From: Kibdelosporangium persicum
GTDB taxonomy: Bacteria; Actinomycetota; Actinomycetes; Mycobacteriales; Pseudonocardiaceae
DNA length: 64,000 nucleotides
Assembly: GCF_013280595.1 (NCBI RefSeq)
Contig: NZ_JAAATY010000009.1
Span: 186,001 to 250,000, forward strand
Direction: 5' to 3'
Part shown: positions 50,531-55,228 of the stretch, in pieces
How positions within the stretch are numbered: position 1 is the first letter of the stretch
Layout: each line of letters begins with the position of its first letter
Notes under the pieces: model-generated
Told to the model about the DNA's origin: nothing
Databases searched by the model: none
What the model saw: the letters and a program-made list of their open reading frames with translations, nothing else
Translations under genes and position numbers: made by a program

Positions 50531-50564
50531 GCCCAGAACGGTACCCCGGCCGGGCGAGCTGTCC

Positions 50565-51428
50565 TCAGTCCCGCTCTCTGATGTTCGTGTGCGGCCTTGA
50601 GCCGTCCACGTCGGTGAAGCCGTACGTCTCGGCGAGCTTTGCCGTCGTTGCGGCCTTGCCTGTGTAGGAAAGCACGTCGGGGTCAGCGGCCAATGCGGCG
50701 ACCGCGCGGCCGACGAACCGGGGCGACTCGGCACGGCTGATGTCGAAGGCACCAGCACCCGGTATGTCGAGCACGCTGACTCCCTCCTCGGTCACGCGTG
50801 CAGCGGTCTCAAGCAGCTCGGTACGCACTAAACCGGGCCAGACCGACACAGCCGCGATGCCGTGCGGCTTCAGCTCGACCGCCATGTCCGCGGTGAGTTT
50901 GTCCACCCCCGCCTTGCCGACGCCGTACACCACGTTGTGCGAGTACCCGGCCGCACCGGACGAGGAGATGTTGATGATCGACCCCGGCCGCGGGGCCTTC
51001 AGCATGAGTGGCACCGCGAAAACACTTGCCACGTAGTGGGACCGCAGCCCGATGTCGATCACCTGGTCCCAGGCGGCGACCGGCAACGTCCAGAATGGAC
51101 GGTTGAGCCACGGCGCGATGTCCGGGGCGGAGAAGACGTTGTTCACCAGGACGTCCAGGTGACCATGGTCGGCTCCGACCCTGGCGAAGAGCGCCTCGAC
51201 CTTGCCGTCGTCCCGGTGGTCACACTCGACGGGAATGCCGACGCCGCCCAGAGCGGTCACTTCCTCCGCCGTCGCTGTGATCGTGCCGGCCAGCGGCCCT
51301 TCGGTCACCGTCCGCCCGGTGAGGTAGACGACCGCTCCCGCAGCGCCCAGTTCGAGTGCGATCCCCTTGCCGACACCCCGGCTCGCGCCGGTCACGACAG
51401 CAACCTTGCCCGCCAGCAGTGAACTCAT
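50565..51428 (-). CDS. Short-chain dehydrogenase/reductase
   Basis: A 287-residue SDR: cofactor motif TGASRGVGKG (residues 13-22), NNVFS (in place of NNAG), catalytic Ser in SSSGAAG and Y-x-x-x-K in YGVGK. The overall pattern resembles the DHRS1 group, with a longer substrate loop. ATG 51428 gives the canonical N-terminus (SSLLAGKVAVVTGASRG). The substrate is unknown. The 35-bp gap to the RpiB-family gene suggests one transcript. Confidence 0.9.
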   Translation of the reverse strand: MSSLLAGKVAVVTGASRGVGKGIALELGAAGAVVYLTGRTVTEGPLAGTITATAEEVTALGGVGIPVECDHRDDGKVEALFARVGADHGHLDVLVNNVFSAPDIAPWLNRPFWTLPVAAWDQVIDIGLRSHYVASVFAVPLMLKAPRPGSIINISSSGAAGYSHNVVYGVGKAGVDKLTADMAVELKPHGIAAVSVWPGLVRTELLETAARVTEEGVSVLDIPGAGAFDISRAESPRFVGRAVAALAADPDVLSYTGKAATTAKLAETYGFTDVDGSRPHTNIRERD

Positions 51429-51565
51429 CCACCCACCCTGGCACACCGTGCGGACATCCGGGTATAGCTGCCGCGAGCGCCGCCGGACCGTACGTACGAT
51501 CGATCGTGCTCACCCAGGCGCGGGGGCGATTCCGGCGTTTCGAAGCGACCGGCATGGCCGAGGCA

Positions 51566-52383
51566 TTAGCGGAGGACACCAGCAAGGCGAGAGCCTGCCC
51601 ACTCGCGCGCGGCGGTCGCCATCCGTGTCTTCCACGGTTGAGGGTCAGCGCTGGCGATGTCGTCCCACATGCGTGCACTGGCCAACGCAAACGCGTCCAG
51701 CGACGCATCGGGCGCCGTGTGCCAGGCATCGGATCGCCGCGCCCATGTCTCGGCTTGCGCCACTGTGTGGCCTGCGGCGACCAAGCGAACGAGTAGGCAA
51801 CAAGGATCAATCCAGGCGGTACCGCGGGTCGGCCAAGCCCAGTCGATCATTCGCGCCGTGCCATCAGCCGGAATGAGCATGTTCGCGGGGTTGTAGTCCG
51901 TGTGCAACAAAGTGTTGCCCGCCAGCATCTCGGCTGCGGCAGGTTGGTCGAAGTAGGCCGCCCATCGTTGCCGGGCATCTTTCAATGGCAAGTCCGGACA
52001 CGGCAAGTCGGCGACCGCACGCATGGCCTCGACGACTACCGGCAGATCCGCAGACCCTGGGGTGTAGTCGGGGTGACGGCCTTCGACGTACTCGAACCCC
52101 AACACGTCCCAGCCGGCGACACTGTCGAGATGCCACAGCATCGCGGGCGCGAGCGGGCGCACGTGAGGATTGATCATGGCTTCGCGCTGCTGCGTGATTA
52201 CGCCAGGATGATCAGTCCGAATACCCTTGACGAACACCTTGCCCATCGCAGTGTCGAGTACTGCGGCAAGAGCGGAGTTCATGCCCTCGGACACGCGGCG
52301 ACATGTTCGATGTGGCCAGTGCGGGCGCTGATGGCGTCGCGTACATCACCAGGGAGGTCCTGCCAGTCGGTGCGTTGTTGCAT
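51566..52383 (-). pseudogene. Aminoglycoside-phosphotransferase-like gene, frameshifted
   Basis: The main frame (52294-51566) encodes most of an APH-fold kinase, with GKVFVKG (ATP Lys), LHTDYNPANML (catalytic loop H-x-D-x-x-x-x-N) and MIDWAWP (metal Asp). Its N-terminus lies in another frame: ATG 52383 opens 34 codons reading DWQDLPGDVRDAISARTG, which is closed by TGA at 52279. Inserting one base near 52290 would join VAAC directly to EGMNSALAAV. One lost base, real or a sequencing error, is the cause. A GTG at 52294 could give a truncated product. It neighbours the RiPP-like genes. Confidence 0.8.
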
Positions 52384-52441
52384 GAGTCCTCGGCGAAGAC
52401 GACAGGTGGGCGGCTGGTCGCGAGCAGGCTACCGACGTGAC

Positions 52442-52476
52442 TGGTGGGCCGACCGTCCGGCACGCCCGGCCCACCA
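52442..52476 (-). terminator. Hairpin after the RiPP-like precursor
   Basis: A perfect 10-bp stem TGGTGGGCCG/CGGCCCACCA (52442-52451 with 52467-52476), starting 11 nt after the precursor stop. Confidence 0.65.
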
Positions 52477-52486
52477 CGGAAATCTC

Positions 52487-52618
52487 CTAGTAGGGGTTGT
52501 CGTCCGACGCAGCACAGTTGTATCGGGCGAAAGCGCCCAATTCCTCGACGTCGTCGACGAGCTCAATCTCGTCGACGTCCAGCGGGCGAGGAGTGAACTC
52601 GATCGACACCGCGGTCAC
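52487..52618 (-). CDS. RiPP-like precursor peptide (43 residues)
   Basis: GTG 52618 has a strong GGAGG Shine-Dalgarno and starts 4 nt after the stop of the radical-SAM remnant gene. The product has an acidic leader-like region (residues 13-27, ten Asp/Glu/Val/Leu-rich positions) and a short core ending YNCAASDDNPY, with one Cys (35) and aromatics F30, Y33 and Y43. Size, leader/core layout and linkage to a maturase remnant indicate a ribosomally made, post-translationally modified peptide. I cannot assign a known RiPP class. Confidence 0.7.
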   Translation of the reverse strand: MTAVSIEFTPRPLDVDEIELVDDVEELGAFARYNCAASDDNPY

Positions 52619-52622
52619 GATC

Positions 52623-53135
52623 TCACCTCCCTCCGTGTTGGCAATAGCGGGTCAGGGGCGCCTTGGCTTCCTGGTAGAGCTTCGCCAAGGGCCGACAAGT
52701 CCAGCAGGACCCGGAGAGCGCGCAGCCCGAACAGCCACCCGTACGTAGCATCAGCGCGTCGGCAGCGTCACCAAGCCGGGTCAAGCCCCCGATGCCCTCA
52801 TCCATCAACGGCACCTTCGGGTCACGGCCGACCTTGCAAATGCTGGCCATACCGTGAGGATCACAGCCGAGATTCAACTCGTACGACGCCCGACCGAATC
52901 CATAGGGCGACGGCTGACGGACAAGCGCCGTGTCCGAGATTTTCTCGCCCGACAGATCGATTCCCCAACGTTGACTTGCCGCATTCACCAGCCACGTTGG
53001 ACATATAGCAGCAGAGTCACTCACGACACCCAGCAGTTCAGCGTAGCGGTTCTTCCCAATCTTAATCGCTTGCCGACTGTCAGGCCGCAAGACGAGATAG
53101 TCGGTCAGGAACGGACTAGCAATGATCTTATGCAA
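52623..53135 (-). pseudogene. Radical-SAM/SPASM peptide maturase lacking its catalytic core
   Basis: A 170-residue in-frame product started at TTG 53135 (GGGAGG 7 nt upstream). Residues 1-85 resemble the N-terminal region of actinobacterial RiPP maturases, reaching RASYELNLGC, the start of the radical-SAM domain. The next residues, DPHGMASICKVGRDP, belong to the C-terminal SPASM region, followed by GGCSGCALSGSCWTC and YCQHG. The CxxxCxxC cluster motif and the barrel (about 220-240 residues) are missing. The junction lies near 52856-52866. The remnant could bind auxiliary iron-sulfur clusters or the leader but cannot do SAM chemistry. Confidence 0.75.
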
Positions 53136-53289
53136 CGCACACCTCCCGACGACCTATTCGGGCACGACCAACGACCGTGCCACGAGTGGGCGCACCCACG
53201 CACTCGACCAGTCGAGCCGTAACCGAACGGCCCAACCATGCCGACGTCGCGGACATCGATCGAGTGCGGCTCGGACACGGTGTCGCGTA

Positions 53290-53501
53290 GGTCCTGGAGG
53301 CTCGACGTCGACACAGCCGTCGAGCAGTGGACAACGGCACACGGTGATGGCGAGCGTGTCGAGGGACAGCCGGAGGTCCGGCCACCACTCGGCCGACACG
53401 TCCAGCGGCACCTGTAGGACGTCACTCGGCGAACAGGGCTAGCCAGGAACCAAGGTCATCAGCTCCGCACGCTGGTTCCGCCAGTCGCGTTCGGGCCACT
53501 C
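53290..53501 (-). pseudogene. Decayed coding sequence upstream of the maturase remnant
   Basis: Three short minus-strand pieces in different frames read like one protein: WPERDWRNQRAELMTL, then WLALFAE, then VLQVPLDVSAEWWPDL with continuing sequence. Each has host-like codon bias and is interrupted by a stop or frameshift. No full frame remains. The identity is unknown; it probably belonged to the same cluster. Confidence 0.35.
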
Positions 53502-53505
53502 AGAC

Positions 53506-54249
53506 TCATGAGTCGGTGAGGTGACGCAGGTAGGCACCAGGGTTGTCGAGGTAGCGGCGCCAATGGTCGACGAGCTGTAAATCTGACCACTTCACCCGAC
53601 GTAGACCGTGTTCACCCACTTCGATGATGTCGGCACCAGGTGTGGAGGCGAGGATCGGTGAGTGCGTCGCGCACACCACTTGTGCGCCTGCCTCGCCAAG
53701 TTCGTGCATCAGGGCAACGAGTTGCAGGCACGCGGTGAACGACAGCGCCGACTCAGGTTCGTCCATGACATAAAAACCGGGATCACGGAACATCGACCGG
53801 AACACGGCAAGGAATCCCTCGCCGTGGCTCATCTCGGCCGTGTTCTCGTCCCAGTAGCCAGGGACACCGCCAAGGTTCTCGGTCATGCTGAACGCGGTTT
53901 CAGCACGCAGGAAGAAGCCCTTCTTCTTCAGCCGCGGTCCGGCCAACATGCGAGCGCCTTTGGCGGTGGTCTCCAGTCTCAGGACCTCGCCAAGAGCTGT
54001 CTTGGTGGTATCGGCGTTGCCCGCTTTGCGGGCTGCTCGTCCGCCGCGCGCGTCGAGCTTGAACCCCTCGGCGATGGCCTCGACCAAGGTCGACTTACCC
54101 GAGCCGTTGTCGCCGACGAGAAACGTCACCGGGTGCGTGAACTCGACGCCGTGCTCGACCACTTCGGCGACGGCCGGCACCGTGTATGGCCACCGCCGGT
54201 AGTCCATCGGGCGTCGAGATTCCGGCACGTAGGCGCGGTTGACGAACAC
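53506..54249 (-). CDS. AAA-family ATPase (ABC/SMC-like)
   Basis: A 247-residue single-domain ATPase: Walker A GDNGSGKST (about residues 46-54), ABC-like signature region MSHGEGFLAVF, Walker B FYVMDEPESALS and His switch ATHSPIL. This is the OLD/RecF-like AAA_23 type, with a short coiled region between Walker A and B. Stand-alone members occur near mobile elements and sometimes in defence systems, but no nuclease partner is adjacent. GTG 54249 gives the standard start. Confidence 0.88.
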   Translation of the reverse strand: MFVNRAYVPESRRPMDYRRWPYTVPAVAEVVEHGVEFTHPVTFLVGDNGSGKSTLVEAIAEGFKLDARGGRAARKAGNADTTKTALGEVLRLETTAKGARMLAGPRLKKKGFFLRAETAFSMTENLGGVPGYWDENTAEMSHGEGFLAVFRSMFRDPGFYVMDEPESALSFTACLQLVALMHELGEAGAQVVCATHSPILASTPGADIIEVGEHGLRRVKWSDLQLVDHWRRYLDNPGAYLRHLTDS

Positions 54250-54309
54250 TCATGCCCTCCTGATCGTAGTTTGGCTGACATCTACCGTTCGGCCCACAGG
54301 GACCAGTAA

Positions 54310-54501
54310 CACACACGGCCAAACCTCACCAATGGGCGAGATGGCCACTTTGTCGCGGGCACAGTGCCCGCAAAGCTGATCAACGCTCGGCTGCCGCTCA
54401 CGTACACCGCGCCCGACTTGGCGGAGATGGTCAACGCGTACCTCACCCTCGATCCCAAGGGCGGCAAGTTCAGCACGGGCCTCATCGACACGTTTCGGTA
54501 G
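54310..54501 (+). pseudogene. Gene fragment with strong coding bias, identity unknown
   Basis: This plus-strand frame (stop TAG at 54499-54501) has near-maximal third-position GC and reads like protein (AKLINARLPLTYTAPDLAEM, then NAYLTLDPKGGKFS). It has no plausible start and opens just after a stop at 54307. It looks like the 3' end of a gene truncated by rearrangement, abutting the integrase remnant at about 54500. Confidence 0.4.
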
Positions 54502-54717
54502 CGGTGCGCATCGTTGGCCGCCGATGTGGCCTCGATGAAGTCGTCGATGTGGTGTGCCTCGACGTCGTGCCCCTGCCCGGCGAGCCATTCGGCCCACCGT
54601 CGAGCGGTGTAGGTAGCTGCGCTCCGTGTTCGCCGACAGGGCCTTGGCCCTGATCGTCTTCCGCCACCGCTCGGCCAGCATGCCCCAGACCGCGGTGTTG
54701 GTACTGGTCTCGCCCAT
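54502..54717 (-). pseudogene. Tyrosine-recombinase (integrase) N-terminal remnant, frameshifted
   Basis: From ATG 54717 the minus strand encodes MLAERWRKTIRAKALSANTE and RSYL, the start of a phage-integrase core-binding domain. A frameshift near 54610 moves the rest (ARRWAEWLAGQGHDVEAHHI, then DDFIEATSAANDAHRYRN) to another frame. The sequence then breaks off at about 54500 before the catalytic domain. It marks a decayed mobile element close to tRNA-Ser. Confidence 0.7.
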
Positions 54718-54835
54718 GTCACAAACTCAGCAATCGTGTTGTCACCGACCGCTGTGCTTGCCATGAGGCCCGCCACGCACCCCGCTGACCCCCCGGTTTT
54801 GTGAGGTCAAGACCCCGTCCGGTACCCTCTTCGAC

Positions 54836-54925
54836 GGAGGATTCGCATAGTGGCCTAGTGCGCACGATTGGAAATCGTGTTGGGTGTGATAGCCCTCAGG
54901 GGTTCAAATCCCCTATCCTCCGCCA
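54836..54925 (+). tRNA. tRNA-Ser (anticodon GGA)
   Basis: A 90-nt type II tRNA: acceptor GGAGGAT/ATCCTCC, anticodon stem CACGA/TCGTG with loop TTGGAAA giving GGA, a long variable arm (TTGGGTGTGATAGCCCTCA), T-loop GTTCAAATC, discriminator G and encoded CCA (54923-54925). Confidence 0.96.
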
Positions 54926-54929
54926 GCCT

Positions 54930-55228
54930 CAGCCGACGTGTGTCCGCGGAAAACGCGGACCACGTCGGCTGATGACCATGCAGGGGGGACCACCCCCCAA
55001 ACCCCCCGACACACCTCAGCCGACGCGTGCCCACAGAAAACGCGGACCACGTCGGCTGATGACCATGCAGGGGGGACCACCCCCCAAACCCCCCGACACA
55101 CCTCAGCCGACGCGTGCCCACAGAAAACGCGGACCACGTCGGCTGGTGACCATGTAGCGGGACTCCACCGAACCTCAGCCGACGCGTGCCCACGGAACGT
55201 GCGGGCCACGTCGGCTGATTTTGCCGGG
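54930..55228 (+). repeat. Tandem 87-bp hairpin repeats downstream of tRNA-Ser
   Basis: Units begin at 54930, 55017, 55104 and 55176 (87, 87 and 72 bp apart). Each starts with the inverted pair CAGCCGACG...CGTCGGCTG. The first two also carry GGGGGG-ACCA-CCCCCC. Copies 1 and 2 differ at only a few positions; copies 3 and 4 are degenerate. Both strands stay open by chance of the 87-bp (29-codon) period, but no start signals or homology support coding. Confidence 0.85.

Follow-up and report, generated by a model that had tools for sequence, protein, structure and literature searches.

APH-type kinases, namely LxmK and TvaC, are found in class V lanthipeptide and thioamitide clusters, in which a HopA1-like partner also occurs. 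In a survey of actinobacterial prophages, 13 of the 2112 were reported to carry small BGCs, with class I lanthipeptides and T3PKS given by name (PMC10023795), and RREs are the subject of a further paper (PMC12710340). The locus described here lies in a 64,000-nt stretch of the Kibdelosporangium persicum genome (contig NZ_JAAATY010000009.1, positions 186,001 to 250,000; hereafter, the window). Its genes are most probably (we estimate a probability of about 0.86) a decaying copy of a three-gene mobile cassette, which encodes a radical-SAM/SPASM maturase, a cysteine-core precursor peptide and an APH-like kinase. The original prediction had placed a 43-aa ORF 4 nt after a 170-aa ORF, and its coordinates for both, which lie on the minus strand, are confirmed (Table 1).

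Table 1. Positions, in window coordinates, of the cassette genes, their lesions and the surrounding insertion site.
Feature	Position	Strand	Basis
Extra DNA, 4.24 kb, between RpiB-like gene and tRNA-Ser(GGA)	50548..54786	.	Comparison with congener G001
APH-like kinase, third cassette gene, frameshifted	51566..52383	-	Frame from ATG 52383 stops at TGA 52279; body open from GTG 52294 to 51566
Precursor peptide, 43 aa, GTG start (52618), acidic leader, core YNCAASDDNPY	52487..52618	-	ORF and relatives
TAC (Tyr33) where 48 CxC-type relatives have Cys	52520..52522	-	Codon comparison
Radical-SAM/SPASM peptide maturase remnant, 170 aa, TTG start (53135)	52623..53135	-	Homology to full-length relatives
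Junction of the deletion, where the Cys91 codon meets an Asp codon; placed to within about 1-3 nt	52861..52865	-	Alignment to L003
tRNA-Ser (GGA), edge of the extra DNA	54836..54925	+	

The nearest relative of the 170-aa window protein is a 370-aa protein of Saccharothrix deserti (L003). The alignment of the two is collinear over L003 residues 1-91 and then over 292-370, and the intervening stretch has no counterpart in the window protein, in which an N part (residues 1-91) is joined directly to a C part that corresponds to the SPASM region. Missing in comparison with L003 are 600 nt, or 200 residues, in frame; this confirms the predicted in-frame loss of the core at the jump from NLGC to DPHGMASICK, and revises the predicted size of the deletion, 220-240 residues. 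The CxxxCxxC motif is absent as had been noted, two of its three cysteines (C95 and C98, L003 numbering) being deleted and C91 retained. Also deleted are the remainder of the SAM-binding core and the downstream C282, and six C-terminal cysteines (C300, C335, C338, C344, C347 and C365) are retained.

The window protein has no match in Pfam (PF04055 included) or in NCBIfam, a result that would also be expected of a short gene family that is new and has no relation to radical SAM. Outside the deletion, however, the protein is homologous to the family maturase, its two halves being 65% and 86% identical to L003 (142 and 130 bits), which itself matches the Pfam radical-SAM domain PF04055 at 58.7 bits. 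An unrelated short family is refuted by this comparison, and we give it practically no credence. PF04055 matches were also found for the relatives L014 and L070, and a SPASM match in Pfam was found neither for the window protein nor for full-length L003. Among solved structures, the window protein had one match only, at chance level (E 0.37). ORF length alone is uninformative at this place, because the GC-rich sequence also holds a 368-aa ORF on the opposite strand; the G+C content of the remnant is 0.597, as compared with 0.667 in the left flank.

Relatives of the 170-aa protein were found at 23 loci in the genome contigs searched; at 21 loci for which start codons were chosen, the maturase ORFs span 365-381 aa. 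For family-wide counts we used 53 rows of distinct proteins, each matched by a single tblastn segment that begins no later than residue 6 and extends at least to residue 365. This set leaves out repeated proteins, L004 (cut by a contig end), L054-L060 (damaged or cut) and the loci L102-L108, which were collected afterwards. Stops occur in this set at codon 40 of L053 and at codon 362, near the end, of L083. CxxxCxxC is present in all 53 distinct full-length relatives, and no other homologue with the same 170-residue length and junction was seen among the fetched loci. In a tree of 54 rows, the window protein groups with L003 in a clade of eight (support 100/99), and phage, viral-contig and plasmid rows are dispersed among the chromosomal ones; the window row fills 46% of the columns in this tree, and several long-branched mobile rows are placed unsurely. 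Across a phylum-wide sample, matches occurred in 10/396 genomes, this genome (G000) included, four of them weak and one (G517) a fragment only. No description of the cassette was found in the open-licence full-text literature, as judged by title or abstract start.

Just downstream of the maturase, a short ORF with a recognisable core was present in 53/53 distinct full-length rows. These cores carry CxC in 48/53 cases, mostly followed by three residues and then D(D/S)xPY, with variants, and a single cysteine in the form GCG(D/E/N)DNP(Y/F) in 5/53. The GCG subgroup (L070, L071, L072, L073 and L084) was seen, among the 53 rows, only on phage, plasmid and viral contigs. The window precursor likewise lies directly downstream of the maturase, separated by 4 nt (52619-52622) and with a strong GGAGGTGA ahead of its GTG. 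It retains DDNPY, with YNC, found in the window alone, in place of CxC or GCG. All seven clade-mates have CxC, and the codon of the first cysteine is TGC in six of them and TGT in L003, as compared with TAC in the window; TGC to TAC is one change. Judged by its codons, the precursor is readable and lacks the first conserved core cysteine; it is not intact, as had been supposed, because this cysteine is a Tyr. By sequence comparison the difference is a strong hint of decay, and a hint rather than proof because five relatives manage with one core cysteine at a different spacing. An NCBIfam match of the precursor to a CrpP-related family was dismissed as chance level (E 0.23).

The third gene, encoding the kinase, carries a net -1 frameshift near its N-terminus, such that its first 34 codons lie in a different frame from the body; a restart could occur at the GTG listed in Table 1 or at an ATG just after it. 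From residue 24 on, the window kinase is 67% identical to the L003 kinase, which matches Pfam APH at 21.7 bits, just below the cut-off of 23.2, and no match for the kinase was found among solved structures. A kinase occurs within about 1.2 kb downstream of the maturase in 47/53 rows, the six without it being L010, L018, L023, L073, L077 and L079. In at least two of the 47 kinase-bearing rows (L008 and L016), in which the maturase is full-length, the coding sequence of the kinase is distributed over two or three frames.

As the genome is a draft of 89 contigs, we considered whether the strain might have a full maturase of which the assembly lost 600 nt. Collapse at a repeat is unlikely, because the sequence that the two breakpoints in L003 have in common amounts to no more than about 1-3 nt; in addition, the kinase frameshift and the Cys-to-Tyr difference would each need a separate error. 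Assembly collapse is in our judgment very improbable.

All residues that are invariant among 17 full-length relatives and lie outside the deletion are present in the remnant. In relative-rate comparisons with seven outgroups, the N part showed 5-11 window-unique changes as compared with 4-7 on the L003 lineage (the largest contrast, 11 versus 4, with outgroup L005), and the C part 1-4 as compared with 1-4; dN was far below dS, which is saturated. Because amino-acid change is not clearly raised, the remnant has either eroded only recently or remains under constraint. Substitution and relative-rate tests cannot separate these two states, so selection on the remnant was not accepted on their account; recent decay is favoured because two further cassette genes are damaged.

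The same observations could also suit a functional, non-catalytic protein that acts as a leader-binding decoy, a regulator or an electron-transfer helper, since the junction is in frame, the start, the Shine-Dalgarno sequence and the 4-nt spacing are kept, every invariant residue outside the deletion is present and the substitution rate is not clearly raised. Against such a protein stand the frameshifted kinase, the lost precursor cysteine and a genome in which no family maturase was found for it to help, and we consider it unlikely. The best other radical-SAM protein in the 10.35-Mb genome reached 51.7 bits (28% identity to L003), well apart from the scores of the remnant halves, so that an intact paralogue, for which a search had been proposed, was not found. 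A profile search of the genome at E up to 1e-30 returned only the two remnant halves. The precursor search, in which a diverged precursor would be missed, returned the peptide itself and one chance match at E 0.65, and no second precursor. Thus, the proposal that the remnant helps a maturase elsewhere finds no support, and help in trans to another maturase was rejected on the absence of a family maturase and of a second precursor in these searches; a distant, non-family maturase in the same genome is conceivable. The other half of the original prediction, a dying cluster, is borne out by the maturase deletion, the kinase frameshift and the change of the precursor Cys to Tyr.

A second kinase homologue (45%) is encoded at C3:359229-360011 (L063), on a contig in which neither a maturase match (E up to 10) nor a precursor match was detected. 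By eye, this gene adjoins genes for a GntR-type regulator and an ABC transporter.

Damage is frequent across the host family, in which 30/390 genomes, this one included, match at E up to 1e-30. Of these, 21 have an undamaged full-length maturase (loci L032-L052, whose frames stay open to the end of the matched region), eight have damaged copies only and one (G022) is cut by contig ends. The damaged-only carriers hence make up 8/29 of those that can be assessed (G000, G050, G099, G199, G201, G202, G208 and G358). Some of the lesions may be sequencing or assembly errors, because five of the eight genomes (G050, G199, G201, G202 and G208) are incomplete drafts, with 87-97% completeness. In G099 (L058), which is a single contig, two large in-frame deletions remove CxxxCxxC and leave a maturase ORF of 199 aa, a loss of the core that is independent of that in the window.

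This second in-frame loss counts in favour of a functional remnant, but the G099 precursor is also without its core, and the other damaged copies in the family have frameshifts, stops or fragments. It also bears on a more specific and distinctly improbable proposal, in which loss of the core, with the reading frame and leader-binding parts kept, was selected. The remnant would then have been domesticated as a decoy, sequestering the leader peptides of phage-borne cassettes that enter the cell and so conferring immunity to them; if this were true, G099 would represent a second case. The patchy spread of the cassette and its frequent breakage would fit a trait that aids the mobile element more than the host.

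The cassette family is horizontally mobile: relatives with a full-length maturase occur on a phage, on viral contigs, on plasmids and, here and there, on genome contigs. In the isolated Streptomyces phage Success (L070, NC_073472.1, positions 266-2380), the cassette is present as gp01-gp03 near one genome end. Here gp01 is the kinase, gp02 the 38-aa ORF and gp03 the maturase, and the annotations given to them are kinase, hypothetical protein and oxidoreductase, respectively. The Success maturase shares 47% identity with L003, in an alignment that spans 99% of the length. When 50,697 phage records were searched at E up to 1e-15, two matched, and both belong to Success, the only distinct phage recovered. 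Plasmid records matched in 8/72,556 cases, of which one is an 11.85-Mb, chromosome-sized record; two others, with 40% identity, are replicons of 1.8 Mb from a single species; three smaller plasmid records were examined (L071-L073), and L073 has no kinase match.

A scan of IMG/VR revealed ten viral contigs with a cassette maturase. The S. deserti copy lies on one of them, L075, where an endolysin gene follows the kinase at a distance of about 0.6 kb and a tail gene lies beyond it; in L076 and L084, an endolysin gene lies at about 3 and 5 kb, respectively. For seven of the ten contigs (L075, L076, L077, L080, L081, L083 and L084), one to four neighbours each were searched against PHROGs, and all seven gave endolysin, tail, portal, integrase, primase or polymerase-type matches. 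The cassette is accordingly located within a phage in Success and in these seven viral contigs.

The window copy itself lies in extra DNA at one edge of which is a tRNA-Ser gene. In congener G001, the gene block ending at 50547, which we take to be an RpiB-like gene, and the block starting at 54787 are only about 40 bp apart. Five other compared congeners hold different material at this site, about 1.2 to 17 kb, and in congener G002 the material includes a phage-type integrase; the seventh congener, G007, gave no anchor match for the comparison. Because the congeners hold differing material there, the site is a place of repeated gain and loss, and the spot between the RpiB-like gene and tRNA-Ser(GGA) (in the window and in L096-L101) is likely an insertion hot spot. 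A family maturase was found in 0/7 congeners.

A clear phage function was found for none of the tested ORFs in the extra DNA. An AAA/OLD-like ATPase of 247 aa is encoded there at 53506-54249 on the minus strand; as many ATPases do, it matches PHROGs families of unknown function, and its best PADLOC match is mad3 (62.8 bits, 374-position model), among 90 generic ATPase matches. Beside tRNA-Ser, at 54250-54776, a pair of overlapping frames was rejected as an integrase remnant, being integrase-like by eye only, with no PHROGs match and two Pfam matches far below cut-off. Just downstream of tRNA-Ser, at 54936-55220, tandem CAGCCGAC...ACGTCGGCTG units can be seen by eye.

A decaying mobile cassette suggests the following sequence of events. 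By analogy with SPASM maturases, the enzyme of an intact copy would most likely bind the acidic leader and act through its radical-SAM cluster on the cysteine core, where it may form thioethers; phosphorylation of the peptide or of a target would fall to the kinase. The cassette DNA was presumably gained beside tRNA-Ser and then eroded. Three lesions are shown by the sequence: the SAM-binding core is gone with the in-frame 600-nt deletion, the kinase is broken by the frameshift and Tyr stands in place of the first core cysteine. A cassette in this state should yield no modified peptide. The window copy, read as a set of pseudogenes, points to a compact radical-SAM peptide cassette on actinophages and plasmids.

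The full-length relatives resemble maturases of the MftC, PqqE, SkfB and StsB type in their PF04055 domain, CxxxCxxC motif, cysteine-rich C-terminus and adjoining small peptide gene. They differ in that the cassette partner is an APH-like kinase, and the window copy differs further in lacking the core. The best NCBIfam match of L003 is the mycofactocin maturase TIGR03962, at 72.9 bits as compared with a curated cut-off of 265, and assignment to a known NCBIfam maturase was rejected, as all 25 NCBIfam matches listed for L003 fall below their curated cut-offs. Similarity of the maturase family to solved structures is confined to the core, the best match being cytosylglucuronate decarboxylase (7vob, 67 bits), with SkfB (6efn) at 53 bits and PqqE (6c8v) at 30 bits. 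Prokaryotic viperins (pVip) share the similarity in the radical-SAM core, and one PADLOC model pairs them with a kinase (58 and 55 bits), but the likeness is limited to the core, and the cassette has in addition a cysteine-rich C-terminus and a peptide gene. Identity as a viperin was rejected, the NCBIfam score being 49 bits versus a cut-off of 180 and the PADLOC match being limited to the core.

The placement of an APH-like kinase beside a RiPP-like precursor is shared with class V lanthipeptide and thioamitide clusters, from which the cassette differs in having a radical-SAM enzyme. No HopA1-like partner was detected among the shared neighbours, compared by clustering within about 6 kb rather than by profile. 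The cassette also differs from the BGCs surveyed in prophages, since no radical-SAM cassette is named in the excerpted text of that survey (PMC10023795). As a small biosynthetic-type cassette carried by phages, with an endolysin gene nearby in L075, L076 and L084, it is akin to the 'morons' of phages.
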